The notes beneath the pieces were generated by a model that was given only the letters and a program-made list of their open reading frames with translations, made no database searches and was not told the DNA's origin. Positions 1,649 through 5,924 of a stretch of DNA of 5,924 nucleotides are shown here, piece by piece (position 1 is the stretch's first letter; each line of letters opens with the position of its first letter). The translations under genes were made by a program, and so were the position numbers. Source of the stretch: a bacterium (GTDB lineage: Bacteria; Patescibacteriota; Minisyncoccia; Phycocordibacterales; UBA6065); NCBI GenBank assembly GCA_030648825.1, contig JAUSGU010000075.1, positions 1 through 5,924 on the forward strand, written 5' to 3'.

Positions 1649-2995
1649 ATGACAATTTTCAATAAACGAGCTCCGTGGCTCCTACTCTTGGGCGATGCCC
1701 TCTTTTTTGTCGTTTCTCTGTGGCTGGCCCTATTTTTGCGTTATGGTCAGTCTCCGGACAAGGAAATATTTTTTGCCCACTTGGCGCCTTTTTCTCTGCT
1801 CTTTGTCGTTTGGATTCTGGTTTTTTTCATCACCGGTCTCTATGACAAACAGAGTGCCATTTTGAAATCAAAACTGCCGACATATCTCTTTCAAGGTCAG
1901 GTTGTCAATTCCGTCATTGCCGTTATTTTCTTTTATTTCGTCCCATGGTTTGGTATCAGTCCGAAAACGACCCTTTTTGTCTATCTGGTCATATCGCTCC
2001 TGCTCATAATTTGGTGGCGAGTTTACGGTTATTTTTTCTTTGCGACAAAGGCGCGCGAAAAACTGATTCTTGTGGGCGGTGGCGGAGAAGTGAATGAACT
2101 GCGCCGAGAAATAGAAAGCAACCAGAGATACAATATAAATATCGTCTCGGTGATTGATTTGGAAAATGCACACCAAAACAATGTTCTCCAGAGTATAGAA
2201 GAGAGCGGGGCTTCCATCGTGGCTATGGATTTTCATAACGACAAGATCCGTTCAATCCTCCCAAATCTGTATAACCTCATCTTTCGGCGTTTGCGTTTCA
2301 TAGATATAGACGAATTATACGAAGCAGTTTTTGACAGAGTGCCACTCTCTCTCATAAAACATAATTGGTTTTTGGAAAACATTTCCACTTCACCGAAAAT
2401 GGTCTATGACGCTTTGAAGCGTTTCATGGATATCACTATCGCCCTCATTTTGGGAATTATTTCTCTCGTTTTTTATCCTTTTGTCGCTCTGGCAATCAAA
2501 TTGGAAGACGGCGGTCAGGTTTTCATTCTTCAGGCGAGAATTGGTGAAAACAATAAACCTATTCACATCAGAAAATTCAGAAGCATGACCACCACAACCA
2601 CTCTCTCCGGCGACAAAAACGGTGGAGCTAACGGTCAATCCATAACCCGTGTCGGCTCTTTTATGAGAAAGACACGCATAGACGAATTGCCTCAACTCTG
2701 GAATGTTGTGAGAGGGGATCTCTCTCTCATAGGTCCGCGTCCAGAATTACCTCAATTTGTAGCCATATATGAGCGGGAAATTCCTTTTTACGGCATACGT
2801 CATCTCATAAAACCGGGACTCTCCGGCTGGGCGCAACTGTATCACCAGACTCCACCAAAATTTGAAGCTTCAAACGAAGATACAAAGATGAAACTCTCTT
2901 ATGATCTGTTTTACATCAAAAATCGCTCATTGCTCCTCGATTTGAACATCGCCCTAAAAACCATTCGGGAAATTGTTTCTAGACGAGGAGTATAA
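1649..2995 (+). CDS. polyprenyl-phosphate sugar-1-phosphate transferase (WcaJ/WbaP-like, Bac_transf)
   Basis: An integral membrane enzyme that transfers a sugar-1-phosphate from a nucleotide sugar to undecaprenyl phosphate, the first committed step of exopolysaccharide or surface-glycan repeat assembly. It has about 448 residues, the normal length for the two-part family. The N-terminal half has four hydrophobic segments (roughly 9-31, 44-64, 84-102, 107-131). A nucleotide-binding-like central part follows, starting LILVGGGGEV (about 139). The catalytic Bac_transf domain starts at KRFMDITIALIL, a membrane-dipping hairpin. It carries RKFRSM (about 308), the essential Asp-Glu in KTRIDELPQLWNV, LSLIGPRPELP, and KPGLSGWAQL. 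I prefer the ATG at 1649 over the TTG at 1643 because of codon type and the promoter position. The downstream epimerase begins 12 bp after the stop, so the two form an operon. The sugar transferred is unknown. Confidence 0.92.
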   Translation: MTIFNKRAPWLLLLGDALFFVVSLWLALFLRYGQSPDKEIFFAHLAPFSLLFVVWILVFFITGLYDKQSAILKSKLPTYLFQGQVVNSVIAVIFFYFVPWFGISPKTTLFVYLVISLLLIIWWRVYGYFFFATKAREKLILVGGGGEVNELRREIESNQRYNINIVSVIDLENAHQNNVLQSIEESGASIVAMDFHNDKIRSILPNLYNLIFRRLRFIDIDELYEAVFDRVPLSLIKHNWFLENISTSPKMVYDALKRFMDITIALILGIISLVFYPFVALAIKLEDGGQVFILQARIGENNKPIHIRKFRSMTTTTTLSGDKNGGANGQSITRVGSFMRKTRIDELPQLWNVVRGDLSLIGPRPELPQFVAIYEREIPFYGIRHLIKPGLSGWAQLYHQTPPKFEASNEDTKMKLSYDLFYIKNRSLLLDLNIALKTIREIVSRRGV

Positions 2996-3007
2996 TCAAA
3001 AAAGACA

Positions 3008-3997
3008 ATGAATAAAAATATAAAAACAATAAATAAAAAAAATAAAAAAACCGCGAATAAAAAAGTAATTGTCACTGGTGGCGCCGGTTTTTTGGGCTCC
3101 ACTCTCGTGCCATCGCTTTTGAGAGGAGGGTACGCAGTGCATGTCATAGATAATTTAATTTCCGGAAAGAGAGAGCATGTACCGAAAGGAGCTATTTTGC
3201 ATGAGGTGGATATCCGCGATGCCAAAACCTTGGAAGATGTGTTCAAAAAAATCGGCGGCGGGGGTGATACAAGTGATATTCATTGTGTTTTCCATTTGGC
3301 CGCTCTGCCCAGAGTGCAATTTTCCATAGATAATCCTCTGGAATCTCATAGTGTAAATGTAAATGGTCTCCTAAATGTTTTTGAAGCGTCGCGAAAAGCG
3401 AAAGTCAGACGAATCGTTTATTCTGCTTCTAGTTCCGCCTACGGTGATCAGACGGTGATGCCTCTACGTGAAGATATGAAACCAAATCCAATGAGTCCTT
3501 ATGCCGCCCATAAATTTTACGGAGAGTTATTGGCCAAACAATATGCCTTGCACTATGGAATTGAAACTGTCTGTCTGCGTTACTTTAATATTTTCGGTCC
3601 GAATTTTGATCCCAACGGTCCTTATGCCATGGCCATAGGAAAATTTCTAATAGCGCAAAAAGAGGGTAGGCCCCTGACAGTTACTGGAGATGGCAGTCAA
3701 ACTCGCGACTGCGTATATGTCACAGATGTGACGCAGGCAAATATTCTCGCCATGGAGAGCAAAAAAGTGGGGAATGGTGAAATTATAAACATAGGTAATG
3801 GCAAGAATATTTCTATTTTGAATCTGGCAAAAATGATCGCTGGTAGAGACGGCAAAATTATCCACATCGCCCCGCGCGTGGAACCTCACGATACATTGGC
3901 CGACATTTCAAAAGCCAGAAAACTGCTCGGTTGGGAGCCGGAGGTTACGATTGAAGAGGGGATTGCAGAGCTGAAACGATTGAATAATATAAAATAG
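3008..3997 (+). CDS. NAD-dependent sugar epimerase/dehydratase (extended SDR, GalE/WbpP-like)
   Basis: A 329-residue nucleotide-sugar epimerase or dehydratase that probably interconverts UDP-hexoses or UDP-HexNAc for the neighbouring glycan genes. Features seen are the NAD-binding TGGAGFLG (23-30), Asp48 at the end of beta-2 (adenosine-ribose contact), FHLAALPRV (95-103), SASSSAYG (139-146), and the catalytic Tyr165-x3-Lys169 pair in SPYAAHKFYGE. RYFNIFGP (191-198) and the substrate-end motif DGSQTRDCVYVTD (228-240) follow. The LPRVQFSIDNP segment resembles UDP-GlcNAc/GalNAc 4-epimerases of the WbpP type more than dehydratases, but specificity is inference. A basic 18-residue tail (Lys/Asn rich) precedes the Rossmann core and is longer than usual. 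It lies 12 bp after the sugar transferase stop with only a weak A-rich ribosome site, so cotranscription and possibly coupled translation are likely. Confidence 0.9.
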   Translation: MNKNIKTINKKNKKTANKKVIVTGGAGFLGSTLVPSLLRGGYAVHVIDNLISGKREHVPKGAILHEVDIRDAKTLEDVFKKIGGGGDTSDIHCVFHLAALPRVQFSIDNPLESHSVNVNGLLNVFEASRKAKVRRIVYSASSSAYGDQTVMPLREDMKPNPMSPYAAHKFYGELLAKQYALHYGIETVCLRYFNIFGPNFDPNGPYAMAIGKFLIAQKEGRPLTVTGDGSQTRDCVYVTDVTQANILAMESKKVGNGEIINIGNGKNISILNLAKMIAGRDGKIIHIAPRVEPHDTLADISKARKLLGWEPEVTIEEGIAELKRLNNIK

Positions 3998-4095: not shown

Positions 4096-4215
4096 CGAGA
4101 TTACGGCGTTCTTTGAGGGCTTTGGCCAAAATAGCTATTTGCCAGAACTTTGAAAGAACGCCGTAACATCAACATACCGGCGCGCATCTCGGGTAATCTC
4201 ATTGTTATGAGACCC
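4096..4215 (+). promoter_or_regulatory. structured 5' leader of the target gene
   Basis: A perfect 14-bp inverted repeat (4100-4113 with 4153-4166; TTACGGCGTTCTTT and its complement) encloses 39 bases that hold a further AT-rich near-palindrome around 4128-4139. Downstream, TCTCAT/ATGAGA (4197-4202 with 4207-4212, loop TGTT) forms a second hairpin, extended by GGG/CCC. GAGATTAC (4096-4103) can instead pair with GTAATCTC (4193-4200), which would compete with both hairpins. No T-run follows the first stem, so it is not a plain terminator. A regulatory leader or a protein-binding site is inferred. Confidence 0.5.
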
Positions 4216-4245: not shown

Positions 4246-4893
4246 ATGAGCACAATCATGTTCTCAGATGTTCGCGGAGTACTGAATGACCTCAACGAGA
4301 AGCTTGCTGGCGAAAAAGCCAACGAAACTCTCGAAGGGCTCAAAAAGTTCCTCCGTGGCGAAAATCCATTCGAGACGGTGACCACGACTGCCAAATGGGA
4401 AGTCCGCGAGGGTGTGATTTACGTCACGCTTCCCGCATCCGAAGGCATCACTGGTCCGCAGTGGATCAAACGCCTGAAGAAAAAGGATTTGCGTGTGAGC
4501 GAATACGCCGAGGGTCTACTGAAGTCGAAAGATTTCAAGCCGACCACAGGTGTCGTCCACAAGCTCGCCATTCTCTCTGGCAAAACCTTCTCCGACTCGG
4601 AACGCATCACGCGTACCATTCGGGCCGAAGGCAAAAAACGGGGTTGGGACGAGCTCAATCCGGAAGCGATCTGCATCCTTCGGGAAAACTTCTCGGATAA
4701 GGAGCTCGAAGCCATGGGTTTCTACTGGATCGTTGGAATTCACGAACCCATCGAGGTCGGCGGTGACCCGCACTTCCTCGTTGCCGCTCGTCATGACGAT
4801 GGCAGTTGGCTCGGCGCGACTTGGGCTGATCCTGGCTACGGCTGGCGTGGCAGTAGTGCGTTTGCTTGGTCCCTCCCGCAAGTTAGTACTTAG
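4246..4893 (+). CDS. DGR target (variable) protein with C-terminal VR
   Basis: A 215-residue protein with no signal peptide or membrane segment, so cytoplasmic unless exported by an unrecognised route. Residues 1-43 look helical and charged. About 51-168 form a domain with WEVREGVIYVTLP, GITGPQWIKRL, RITRTIRAEGKKRGW and ICILRENFSDKELEAMG, ending WIVGIHEPI. The C-terminus (169-209) is encoded by the VR and carries DDGSW (184-188) and AFAWSL (205-210). The latter resembles the conserved end of CPR DGR targets, whose VR domains are believed to adopt a C-type-lectin-like fold. Comparison with the TR shows 15 diversified residues: 172, 174, 179, 181, 183, 190-192, 195, 197-199, 201-203. Codon use is visibly more GC-rich than that of the sugar genes and of avd, hinting at separate ancestry. 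The ligand is unknown. Confidence 0.88.
   Translation: MSTIMFSDVRGVLNDLNEKLAGEKANETLEGLKKFLRGENPFETVTTTAKWEVREGVIYVTLPASEGITGPQWIKRLKKKDLRVSEYAEGLLKSKDFKPTTGVVHKLAILSGKTFSDSERITRTIRAEGKKRGWDELNPEAICILRENFSDKELEAMGFYWIVGIHEPIEVGGDPHFLVAARHDDGSWLGATWADPGYGWRGSSAFAWSLPQVST
4751..4878 (+). repeat. DGR variable repeat (VR)
   Basis: 128 bp, ungapped against the TR at 5240-5367 (constant offset 489). It has 21 mismatches: positions 4759, 4760, 4765, 4780, 4781, 4786, 4787, 4792, 4813, 4814, 4816, 4820, 4828, 4835, 4837, 4840, 4841, 4846, 4847, 4850 and 4853. Every one is an A in the TR; the VR has G at 15, C at 4 and T at 2. The last 25 bp (4854-4878) are identical to the TR and end in a pyrimidine-rich CCCTCCCG, the likely initiation-of-mutagenic-homing region. 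Identity ends there, with CA in the VR flank against TC beside the TR. Confidence 0.97.
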
Positions 4894-4899
4894 TTCTTT

Positions 4900-4919
4900 G
4901 GGCTCTTGGGCACTAGCCC
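4900..4919 (+). other. small hairpin just downstream of the VR
   Basis: GGGCT (4900-4904) pairs with AGCCC (4915-4919) around a 10-base loop, starting 21 bp after the VR ends. It may assist target-site recognition or be incidental. A second small stem, AGAAC/GTTCT (4930-4934 with 4938-4942), lies between it and the large hairpin. Confidence 0.3.
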
Positions 4920-4944
4920 TCTGATCCTTAGAACTTAGTTCTTC

Positions 4945-4974
4945 ACGGCCTCGACGAAAGTCGAGGCCGTTTTA
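4945..4974 (+). terminator. GAAA-loop hairpin: target-gene terminator and possible DGR cruciform
   Basis: A perfect 11-bp stem (4945-4955 with 4960-4970, ACGGCCTCGAC) is closed by a GAAA tetraloop and followed by TTTTAT. It is a convincing intrinsic terminator for the target gene. In the Bordetella phage DGR, a hairpin with a GRNA-type tetraloop just after the VR increases retrohoming efficiency. The GAAA loop fits that class, but here the stem begins 66 bp after the VR instead of a few bases. A dual role is inferred. Confidence 0.8.
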
Positions 4975-5239
4975 TATTTATGATAATATTATTTATGGTA
5001 GTAGGCGAGTATGTGAGAGACTATTGGATTTATCCTAAGTTTCCTGCTGCCGAATCCAGTATCCATGAGCTGAGAGCGTTCGCGACCTTAAATAGTTTTT
5101 GGGTTTCGAACGGAGGGTTCATGCAGACACTTCAAAAAATGAAGATACTTGGTGCGAAAAGCTAGAGCATTACGATGCTGAATTCGATTCAATCCCGAGA
5201 GTATTCAAAGGATGGTGTTACAGAAGGCTTTTCGCACAT
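4971..5239 (+). other. spacer between target and TR; probable start of the TR RNA
   Basis: I see no convincing gene here. A 61-codon open frame at 4980-5165 has no recognisable family, no ribosome site and an overlap with folded sequence, so I regard it as doubtful. From 5152 the sequence is rich in inverted repeats. GTGCGAAAAGC (5152-5162) pairs with GCTTTTCGCAC (5227-5237), enclosing AGCAT/ATGCT with a TACG loop (5166-5179) and GAAT/ATTC (5180-5190). The outer stem closes 2 bases before the TR, so it probably belongs to the non-coding TR transcript. The transcript's promoter is not obvious; the AT-rich 4971-4996 is a candidate area. Confidence 0.45.
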
Positions 5240-5367
5240 TCGAGGTCAACGGTAACCCGCACTTCCTCAATGCCAATCGTAATGACGATGGCAGTTGGCT
5301 CAACACGAATTGGGCTAATCCTGACAACAACTGGAATGACAATAGTGCGTTTGCTTGGTCCCTCCCG
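5240..5367 (+). repeat. DGR template repeat (TR)
   Basis: The 128-bp invariant donor copy. It contains 33 adenines, and 21 of them differ in the VR. It is loaded with AAC/AAT codons in the VR reading frame: 12 Asn codons, all changed in the VR. AAY codons cannot become stop codons by changes at the two adenines, a typical DGR design. The repeat happens to read as an open frame (GNPHFLNANRNDDGSW and so on) only because it mirrors the target's 3' end; no start or ribosome site supports translation. It acts as the template RNA for the RT. Confidence 0.96.
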
Positions 5368-5376
5368 TCAGTCTCT

Positions 5377-5751
5377 TTATTTCTCTCCCGTTCGCCCATT
5401 GGCAGATTCGGGGGAGTTTTGTTTTACGATTTGCCCATACCAACCGCCAAGCATTTTCCCTGCCAATGAGAGAGGCTCGGACAGAGCGATATATTTTTTG
5501 TCATCAATAGTTTCTGTTTCCCATGCCATAAATAGAAAGAATTTAAGAGCGTCTAGGGAAACAATCGCTTTCTTTATAAACGGTTGTTTTTCTCGTATTT
5601 GCAAGAAACTGGCGATAAGTATGTTTTCAATCGTCTGTAAAAAATATTTGTCTATTGTTTCGCCGAGAGTATATCGCGAAGTTTTTGAAAAAGTTACAAT
5701 GTATTCATGCCAGAGTTTGTAGGACAACTTAACTTTTTCGAGAACAGGCAA
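5377..5751 (-). CDS. avd: Avd-type four-helix-bundle protein (DGR accessory variability determinant)
   Basis: A 124-residue, mostly helical, basic protein matching the bacterial Avd family in length. Seen are YKLWHEY (11-17), the signature TSRYTLGETID (24-34), LDALKFFLFMAWE (66-78) and GKMLGGW (98-104). In characterised DGRs Avd forms a pentameric bundle that binds the RT and TR RNA and is needed for mutagenic cDNA synthesis. It is transcribed against target, TR and RT. Its stop is 9 bp from the TR end and its last codons lie over the TR terminator hairpin. The only start near the expected N-terminus is TTG at 5751. The frame stays open upstream to about 5784 without an ATG, because the nine-G tract puts an ATG at 5789-5791 one base out of frame. 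The true start is therefore unresolved. Confidence 0.87.
   Translation of the reverse strand: MPVLEKVKLSYKLWHEYIVTFSKTSRYTLGETIDKYFLQTIENILIASFLQIREKQPFIKKAIVSLDALKFFLFMAWETETIDDKKYIALSEPLSLAGKMLGGWYGQIVKQNSPESANGRTGEK
5383..5425 (+). terminator. intrinsic terminator of the TR RNA
   Basis: CTCTCCCG (5383-5390) pairs with CGGGGGAG (5409-5416) over 8 bp, with one G-U pair. An inner GCC/GGC stem (5394-5396 with 5401-5403) is present, and TTTTGTTTT follows at 5417-5425. It starts 16 bp after the TR and would define the 3' end of the TR transcript. It lies inside the antisense avd coding region, whose C-terminal codons it must also encode. Confidence 0.7.
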
Positions 5752-5774
5752 GAGCTTGGGTTGAAAATTGCTGT

Positions 5775-5783
5775 GGGGGGGGG
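5775..5783. repeat. nine-G homopolymer between avd and RT
   Basis: G9 on the plus strand lies in the shared 5' region of the divergent avd and RT genes. Loss of one G would put an ATG (minus strand, 5791-5789) in frame with avd and a TTG at 5768 in frame with the RT. It could be a sequencing error or a slippage-prone contingency tract. Confidence 0.6.
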
Positions 5784-5789
5784 CGCTTC

Positions 5790-5924
5790 ATAGGTTCGGG
5801 CCGAATTAAATTTTGTCATACATATAACGATATCATTTCCGTAGAAAACCTGCTCTCCGCGTGGAAAGAATTTATTCGAGGTAAACGTTCCAAAAAAGAC
5901 GTGCAAGAATTTCAGTTTCGTCTT
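5790..5924 (+). CDS. DGR reverse transcriptase, N-terminus only (partial)
   Basis: The frame runs open to the window edge and encodes IGSGRIKFCHTYNDIISVEN, then LLSAWKEFIRGKRSKKDVQE, then FQFRL. The pattern YNDIISVENLLSAW-EF-RGKR-K-DVQEF is the conserved N-terminus of DGR/group II-like RTs of CPR bacteria. The fingers and palm with the catalytic YxDD box lie outside the window. The enzyme would copy TR RNA into cDNA with misincorporation opposite adenines. The start is unresolved. The frame is open from 5733 but holds no ATG, GTG or TTG before the homology begins; 5790 is an ATA and is used here only as the approximate boundary. A length change in the G9 tract would supply upstream starts. 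Confidence 0.85.
   Translation, partial: MGSGRIKFCHTYNDIISVENLLSAWKEFIRGKRSKKDVQEFQFRL

Follow-up and report, generated by a model that had tools for sequence, protein, structure and literature searches.

How can a cell keep a mutator without having it scramble a useful receptor? The question is raised by a contig of a Patescibacteria-like genome (JAUSGU010000075.1 in assembly GCA_030648825.1; the whole of its 5924 nt was analysed and is called the window below), which carries a diversity-generating retroelement (DGR) and ends inside the gene for its reverse transcriptase (RT). In this DGR the avd gene lies antisense to the RT gene and to the template repeat (TR), whose copy in the target gene is the variable repeat (VR), and a run of nine G residues stands between avd and RT. 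We consider it probable that slippage of this G9 tract switches the avd reading frame on and off, and avd is thus likely a phase-variable contingency locus that gates a mutator. The features concerned are the following.

4246 to 4893, plus strand: target gene of the DGR, 215 amino acids, with the variable region at its 3′ end

4751 to 4878, plus strand: VR, changed at 21 of the 33 TR adenines and at 0 of the 95 other bases

5240 to 5367, plus strand: TR, on the same strand as the target gene and RT, ending 9 nt before the avd stop codon

5377 to 5751, minus strand: conserved core of avd, antisense to TR and RT, with its stop codon at 5377–5379 and its core start placed by the avd profile

5775 to 5783, between avd and RT: simple-sequence tract G9 (C9 on the avd strand), the proposed slippage switch

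5789 to 5791, minus strand: ATG, second candidate avd start, in frame with the core in one non-assembled phase

5811 to 5924, plus strand: conserved N-terminus of the RT (RT profile match of 47 bits from 5811; phrog_1423, E 3.6e-5), cut by the contig end

5817 to 5819, minus strand: ATG, candidate avd start, in frame in the other non-assembled phase and starting the peptide MTKFNSARTYEA

The original prediction had identified the locus as a DGR from an ungapped 128-nt VR/TR match with changes at adenines only and from a neighbouring target gene, avd and RT N-terminus, and all of these elements were recovered. VR and TR align at an offset of 489 nt with 21 mismatches, every one of them at a TR adenine (15 A>G, 4 A>C and 2 A>T, with A as the TR base), and the remaining 12 of the 33 adenines are unaltered; the probability that 21 random changes would all land on these adenines is 6e-16. 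The similarity stops just past 4878, with the first non-A mismatches at 4879–4880. All 12 TR codons that start with AA are altered in the VR, and of the 15 altered codons every one changes its residue and none becomes a stop. The avd product matches PHROG 3206 (E 6e-13) and, under the curated cut-off in both cases, NF033474 (NCBIfam DivGenRetAVD, E 6.6e-12) and PF22296 (Pfam bAvd, E 3.9e-6). The adenine-only differences, the Avd family matches and the RT N-terminus together uphold the DGR identity. That earlier reading was nevertheless incomplete, as it overlooked both that avd is inverted (minus strand), standing head-to-head with RT between TR and RT, and that a G tract lies between the two genes. 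As the contig is exactly 5924 bases long, the downstream RT motifs lie beyond this locus; no match to the remainder of the RT was found on the other contigs of the genome, the sole RT match there being the RT on contig C11.

At its assembled length of G9 the window avd is closed, with an in-frame stop 7 nt beyond the tract, and the two non-assembled phases each open onto an ATG (5817–5819 and 5789–5791, respectively). The former ATG is separated from the tract by 36 nt, which is near the values seen most often in relatives (34 and 37 nt).

These relatives come from 264 locus identifiers gathered from the window's own genome, from members of its order, class and phylum and from GTDB contigs (best 80 of 567), and they are the best-scoring loci, not a random sample. 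Dropping 41 identifiers (39 duplicates, L019 with no RT and L124 with no RT N-terminus) left 223 loci. An antisense avd, head-to-head with RT, is seen in 219 of them, a same-strand avd in one and no recognised avd in three; the antisense layout is thus present in 219 of the 220 loci with a recognised avd. The sole relative with avd on the RT strand, L157, is without a repeat tract. Matches to avd occurred in 25 of the 60 genomes searched (own included), and a VR/TR pair was found in 185 of the 219 antisense loci, where 3060 of the 3202 mismatches (95.6%) are at an A of the RT-proximal copy.

A simple repeat stands between the avd core and the RT core in 195 of the 219 antisense loci. Its unit is G in 166 (7–14 long), GA/AG in 22, CT in 2, GT/TG in 2, and TTGG, CTGA and ATTG in one locus each. 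When the positions of such repeats were scanned in 164 loci, 14 and 130 repeats fell into the pair of 50-nt bins nearest the RT core on its upstream side, and 4 into the other 39 bins together. On the RT tree (162 rows) the tract class changes 21 times among six classes, namely five unit classes and 'none'. The window's own genome has G8 or longer at four places, two of which are its DGR junctions; its tracts of at least G9 number three, and each of its two DGRs has one of these. A G9 tract is also seen at the very start of contig C49 (21–30). Across 23 genomes chosen for having an RT, own included, there are 56 tracts of G9 or more, of which 26, in a by-eye comparison, lie roughly 100 nt or less from where an RT begins; one further tract belongs to a DGR (L390). 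At four loci (L122, L127, L185 and L111) a contig end or a run of N falls at the avd/RT junction, as would be expected if mixed tract lengths had broken the assembly.

The second DGR of the window's own genome is complete (L004, on C11). It has its own target, an avd that is likewise inverted and its own G10 tract, with RT at 1866–2900 (minus strand), avd at 2884–3222 (plus strand), TR at 3249–3381 and VR at 3723–3855, and its avd is likewise closed at the assembled G10 length. The motifs YxDD and LGNxTSQ are invariant across the C11 RT and eight relatives, the C11 RT having YADD; the SQ motif is treated as a DGR trait in the available text of PMC3521204.

Frame analysis covered 194 tract loci (L049, in which the tract begins before the avd core position, was excluded), and in 193 of these an in-frame ATG between tract and avd core is absent. 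In 192 of the 194 loci, reading upstream through the tract meets an ATG, no more than 60 nt away and ahead of any stop, in at least one phase; exactly one phase is open in 161. In a 142-locus set at least one phase was open in 140 loci, versus a mean of 78.1 and a maximum of 93 in composition-like random sequences (300 runs), and exactly one phase was open in 121, versus a mean of 61.1 and a maximum of 79 (300 runs). At the assembled length an in-frame ATG within 100 nt is present in 22 of the 24 tract-less loci versus 56 of the 194 tract loci (Fisher 2e-9, relatedness ignored), the latter fraction being not different from a third (p 0.2). Of the 161 single-phase loci 128 are closed as assembled, and the avd core is free of stops in 137 of the 138 closed loci.

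Close relatives also differ in tract length. L166 and L169 (92.5% identical) have GA6 and GA8, L109 and L199 (90.2% identical) have TTGG10 and ATTG7, and L128 and L137 (90.7% identical), two DGRs of one genome, have G10 and G12. An open form corresponding to a closed one was found for L174, whose avd is closed at C10: the database protein P0076 has an identical 100-residue core and starts MTELNFSSK-PPP-RQV, that is, with the upstream peptide of L174 and its downstream residues joined in frame by three prolines. P0084 had been considered as a closed partner of P0076 and was not counted, since it begins without a start residue and probably lies at a contig edge. Among the best 120 of 175 database relatives of the window Avd, the core is preceded by at least six residues in 51 and by a stretch with PP or PPP in 43; among the best 120 of 736 relatives of a GA-tract Avd, 60 have PP or variable-length Ser-Leu repeats near the N-terminus. 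Two pairs of 99% identical proteins (P0081/P0104 and P0089/P0092), each with one member carrying the proline extension and the other starting internally, point in the same direction, as protein sequences only.

The RT gene lies on the other side of the tract, and in 69 of 102 loci (68 by a slightly different scan) an ATG of its own follows the tract, so that it is probably not frame-gated there. In 15 loci the tract is followed at a distance of at most 8 nt by the RT core and no such ATG is present; in 13 of these 15 (the exceptions being L068 and L145) an RT phase that reaches an avd-side ATG is open for avd as well. One tract seems to gate RT and avd together in a small subset of relatives. 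For the window RT, a start scan of the stretch from tract to core found neither ATG nor GTG nor TTG in frame; the RT is opened in one avd-open phase by a GTG that abuts the tract, and in the other by another alternative start.

Several observations weigh against a slippage switch at avd. Equal tract lengths were found in L102 and L105 (88.3%, both G11) and in L204 and L210 (80.6%, both G9), the tract differences listed above stem from different assemblies or species, with no switching seen within a population, and homopolymer lengths in assemblies are error-prone. P0076 is known as a protein only. The tract is missing, at the threshold used, from 24 of the 219 antisense loci, which include L134, L154 and L182 (G6), L167 (about four GA) and L111 (a run of N), and it is present in 3 and missing in 12 of 15 antisense-avd loci on viral contigs (L297–L312). 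Two loci, L113 and L145, have no ATG-open phase, 31 loci, the window included, have two, and the 33 of 161 single-phase loci that are open as assembled fall below a third (p 4e-4). On the RT side, the coordination test is weakened because 6 of these 15 RTs have more than one open phase (two or three), and the window RT's own start is unclear because no standard start follows the tract.

If the tract instead acted on transcription or on RT translation, as promoter spacing or as a G-rich ribosome-binding site, the effect on the avd frame would be a by-product. The RT's own ATG in the 69 of 102 loci lies most often 13 nt past the tract (21 loci), which fits such a role, and a meningococcal promoter poly-G tract is known to act on transcription, as described in the available text of PMC3639595. 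However, GA, CT and tetranucleotide tracts would hardly be usable as a ribosome-binding site, the distance from tract to RT core varies from 1 to 78 nt, and the avd side obeys the frame rule in 192 of the 194 loci; we regard this explanation as unlikely. A similarly low probability is given to the idea that tract length is irrelevant and Avd production constitutive, through a non-canonical start past the tract or through ribosomal or RNA-polymerase slippage on it. The listed start of the window avd is indeed a TTG (5751), which is the first residue of the conserved core, and an in-frame ATG, GTG or TTG stands between tract and core in 12 of the 194 loci, the seven itemised in the 102-locus set being all TTG. 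However, an in-frame ATG lies upstream in 22 of the 24 tract-less loci, the open-form database proteins run through the tract in frame, and neither polymerase nor ribosome generally slips readily on di- and tetranucleotide tracts.

The tract and the closed avd might also mark decay, that is, a dying DGR with avd as a pseudogene, given that the window avd is closed at G9 and that its RT lacks a standard start after the tract and is cut by the contig end. The stop-free cores of 137 of 138 closed loci, the antisense layout kept in 219 of 220 and the adenine changes of the window VR, none of which creates a stop, make decay even less probable than the two preceding explanations. The least credible explanation is an assembly or sequencing artefact at a homopolymer; such runs are error-prone and L011 has an N and L111 has 19 N at the tract spot, but the tract occurs at one site in 195 of 219 loci from many records, di- and tetranucleotide units included, and of the only 3 tracts in the whole own genome that reach at least G9, two belong to its two DGRs. 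We retain frame switching of avd by tract slippage as the preferred reading.

Given the observed layout, tract, frame rule and adenine signature, the switch would work as follows. Replication slippage would alter the tract length and with it the phase, and the minority of cells in an open phase would make full-length Avd. With Avd present, the RT would make a copy of the TR RNA that carries mistakes at adenines, and this copy would take the place of the VR in the target gene; cells in closed phases would keep their current VR. In the subset of relatives in which the RT frame crosses the tract too, the RT would open in the phase of avd, so that one tract would gate both. The requirement for Avd is taken from work on the DGR of Bordetella phage BPP-1 (available text of PMC12875486 and PMC6642488), where Avd inactivation lowers DGR repair in E. 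coli to ∼1e-9 (PMC12875486). Extended to much of the Patescibacteria, we think it probable, if somewhat less so than for the window itself, that the DGR machine is phase-variable, with a slipping repeat yielding rare avd-on cells and bursts of diversification followed by a return to the off state with the new variant kept; in one subset the two divergent, overlapping genes would share a single tract as their gate, and two DGRs in one genome would mean two independent switches. A different set of genes in one genome (G135, contigs C9 and C5; L377–L380) comprises five similar genes with a secretion-signal-like start and a G10–G13 tract at most about 30 nt upstream of the open frame, which are possibly further phase-variable surface proteins in Patescibacteria.

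Viral contigs offer a comparison outside the cellular set. The same RT alignment yielded 80 IMG/VR loci, 57 of them distinct, and among those with no recognised avd (33, in which avd may be missed because the avd profile was built from patescibacterial sequences) or with a same-strand avd (9), none of the 42 shows a repeat in the 150 nt that lead up to the RT core. In a 230-row RT tree, rows from IMG/VR contigs are interspersed with the main tract-less clade, and several viral-contig DGRs are close to the tract-less cellular clade. A prophage origin of the tract-less loci is not claimed, as an independent-pairs test was not significant despite this mixing.

The surroundings of the repeats hold a further feature on the target-gene side.

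4945 to 4970, plus strand: terminator-like element downstream of the target gene, made up of a strong hairpin (fold −14.8 kcal/mol as DNA, z −7.0) with a T-rich stretch behind it

A long imperfect hairpin at 4101–4166 (z −4.5 as DNA), between an epimerase gene and the target gene, likely sits in the leader of the latter. The window gave four Rfam matches, all under the gathering score and taken as chance, among them a mir-872 match that covers this leader hairpin. Directly 3′ of TR (5365–5480) nothing notable was seen in the predicted structure (z −0.49 as DNA), and a Foldseek search with the target-protein fold, for which a C-type lectin fold would be typical of a DGR, gave no significant match.

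The window DGR shares with that of phage BPP-1 (mtd/avd/TR/brt) the adenine-specific TR/VR changes, Avd, the RT and a C-terminally variable target. In BPP-1, as described in the available text of PMC12875486, avd, TR and brt make up a single operon in which avd stands on the 5′ side of TR and a spacer on its 3′ side. In the window, by contrast, avd is inverted between TR and RT, antisense avd takes the place 3′ of TR, and the tract splits the avd start from its core. As avd is placed between TR and RT but on the strand opposite to theirs, RNA past the 3′ end of TR would consist of antisense avd. The locus probably belongs to DGR clade 2 of Roux et al. 2021 (PMC8144416), the Patescibacteria/Candidate Phyla Radiation DGRs, which share the host group and, according to the available part of that paper, have targets without recognisable domains; its main text, so far as available, makes no mention of avd, accessory, orientation or strand, and hence of neither the tract nor an antisense avd. 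Rearranged DGR cassettes are already known: the accessible text of PMC6642488 groups DGRs by the order and orientation of TR, VR and RT, RT inversion included, and that of PMC3521204 describes an inversion-type cassette. The tract is the part found nowhere in the literature searched, as no phase-variable DGR was among the literature matches listed (most subscription papers lie outside their coverage), and phase variation in the accessible text of a review (PMC10053308) concerns host surface molecules. The one paper found on Patescibacteria and phase variation deals, by its abstract, with archaeal methylation.

If the proposed switch is real, it would account for a cell's ability to retain a mutator while sparing a useful receptor, and two diversity generators would be stacked, slippage picking the cells that diversify and adenine mutagenesis setting the outcome. 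The closest parallel for the switch itself is with the phase-variable genes of Campylobacter, Neisseria and Helicobacter, in which, going by the available parts of the sources, simple-sequence tracts (poly-G/C of seven or more among them) likewise set the reading frame. The genes switched there are mostly surface structures, receptors and methyltransferases, whereas the gene switched here would be part of a mutator that diversifies another gene.

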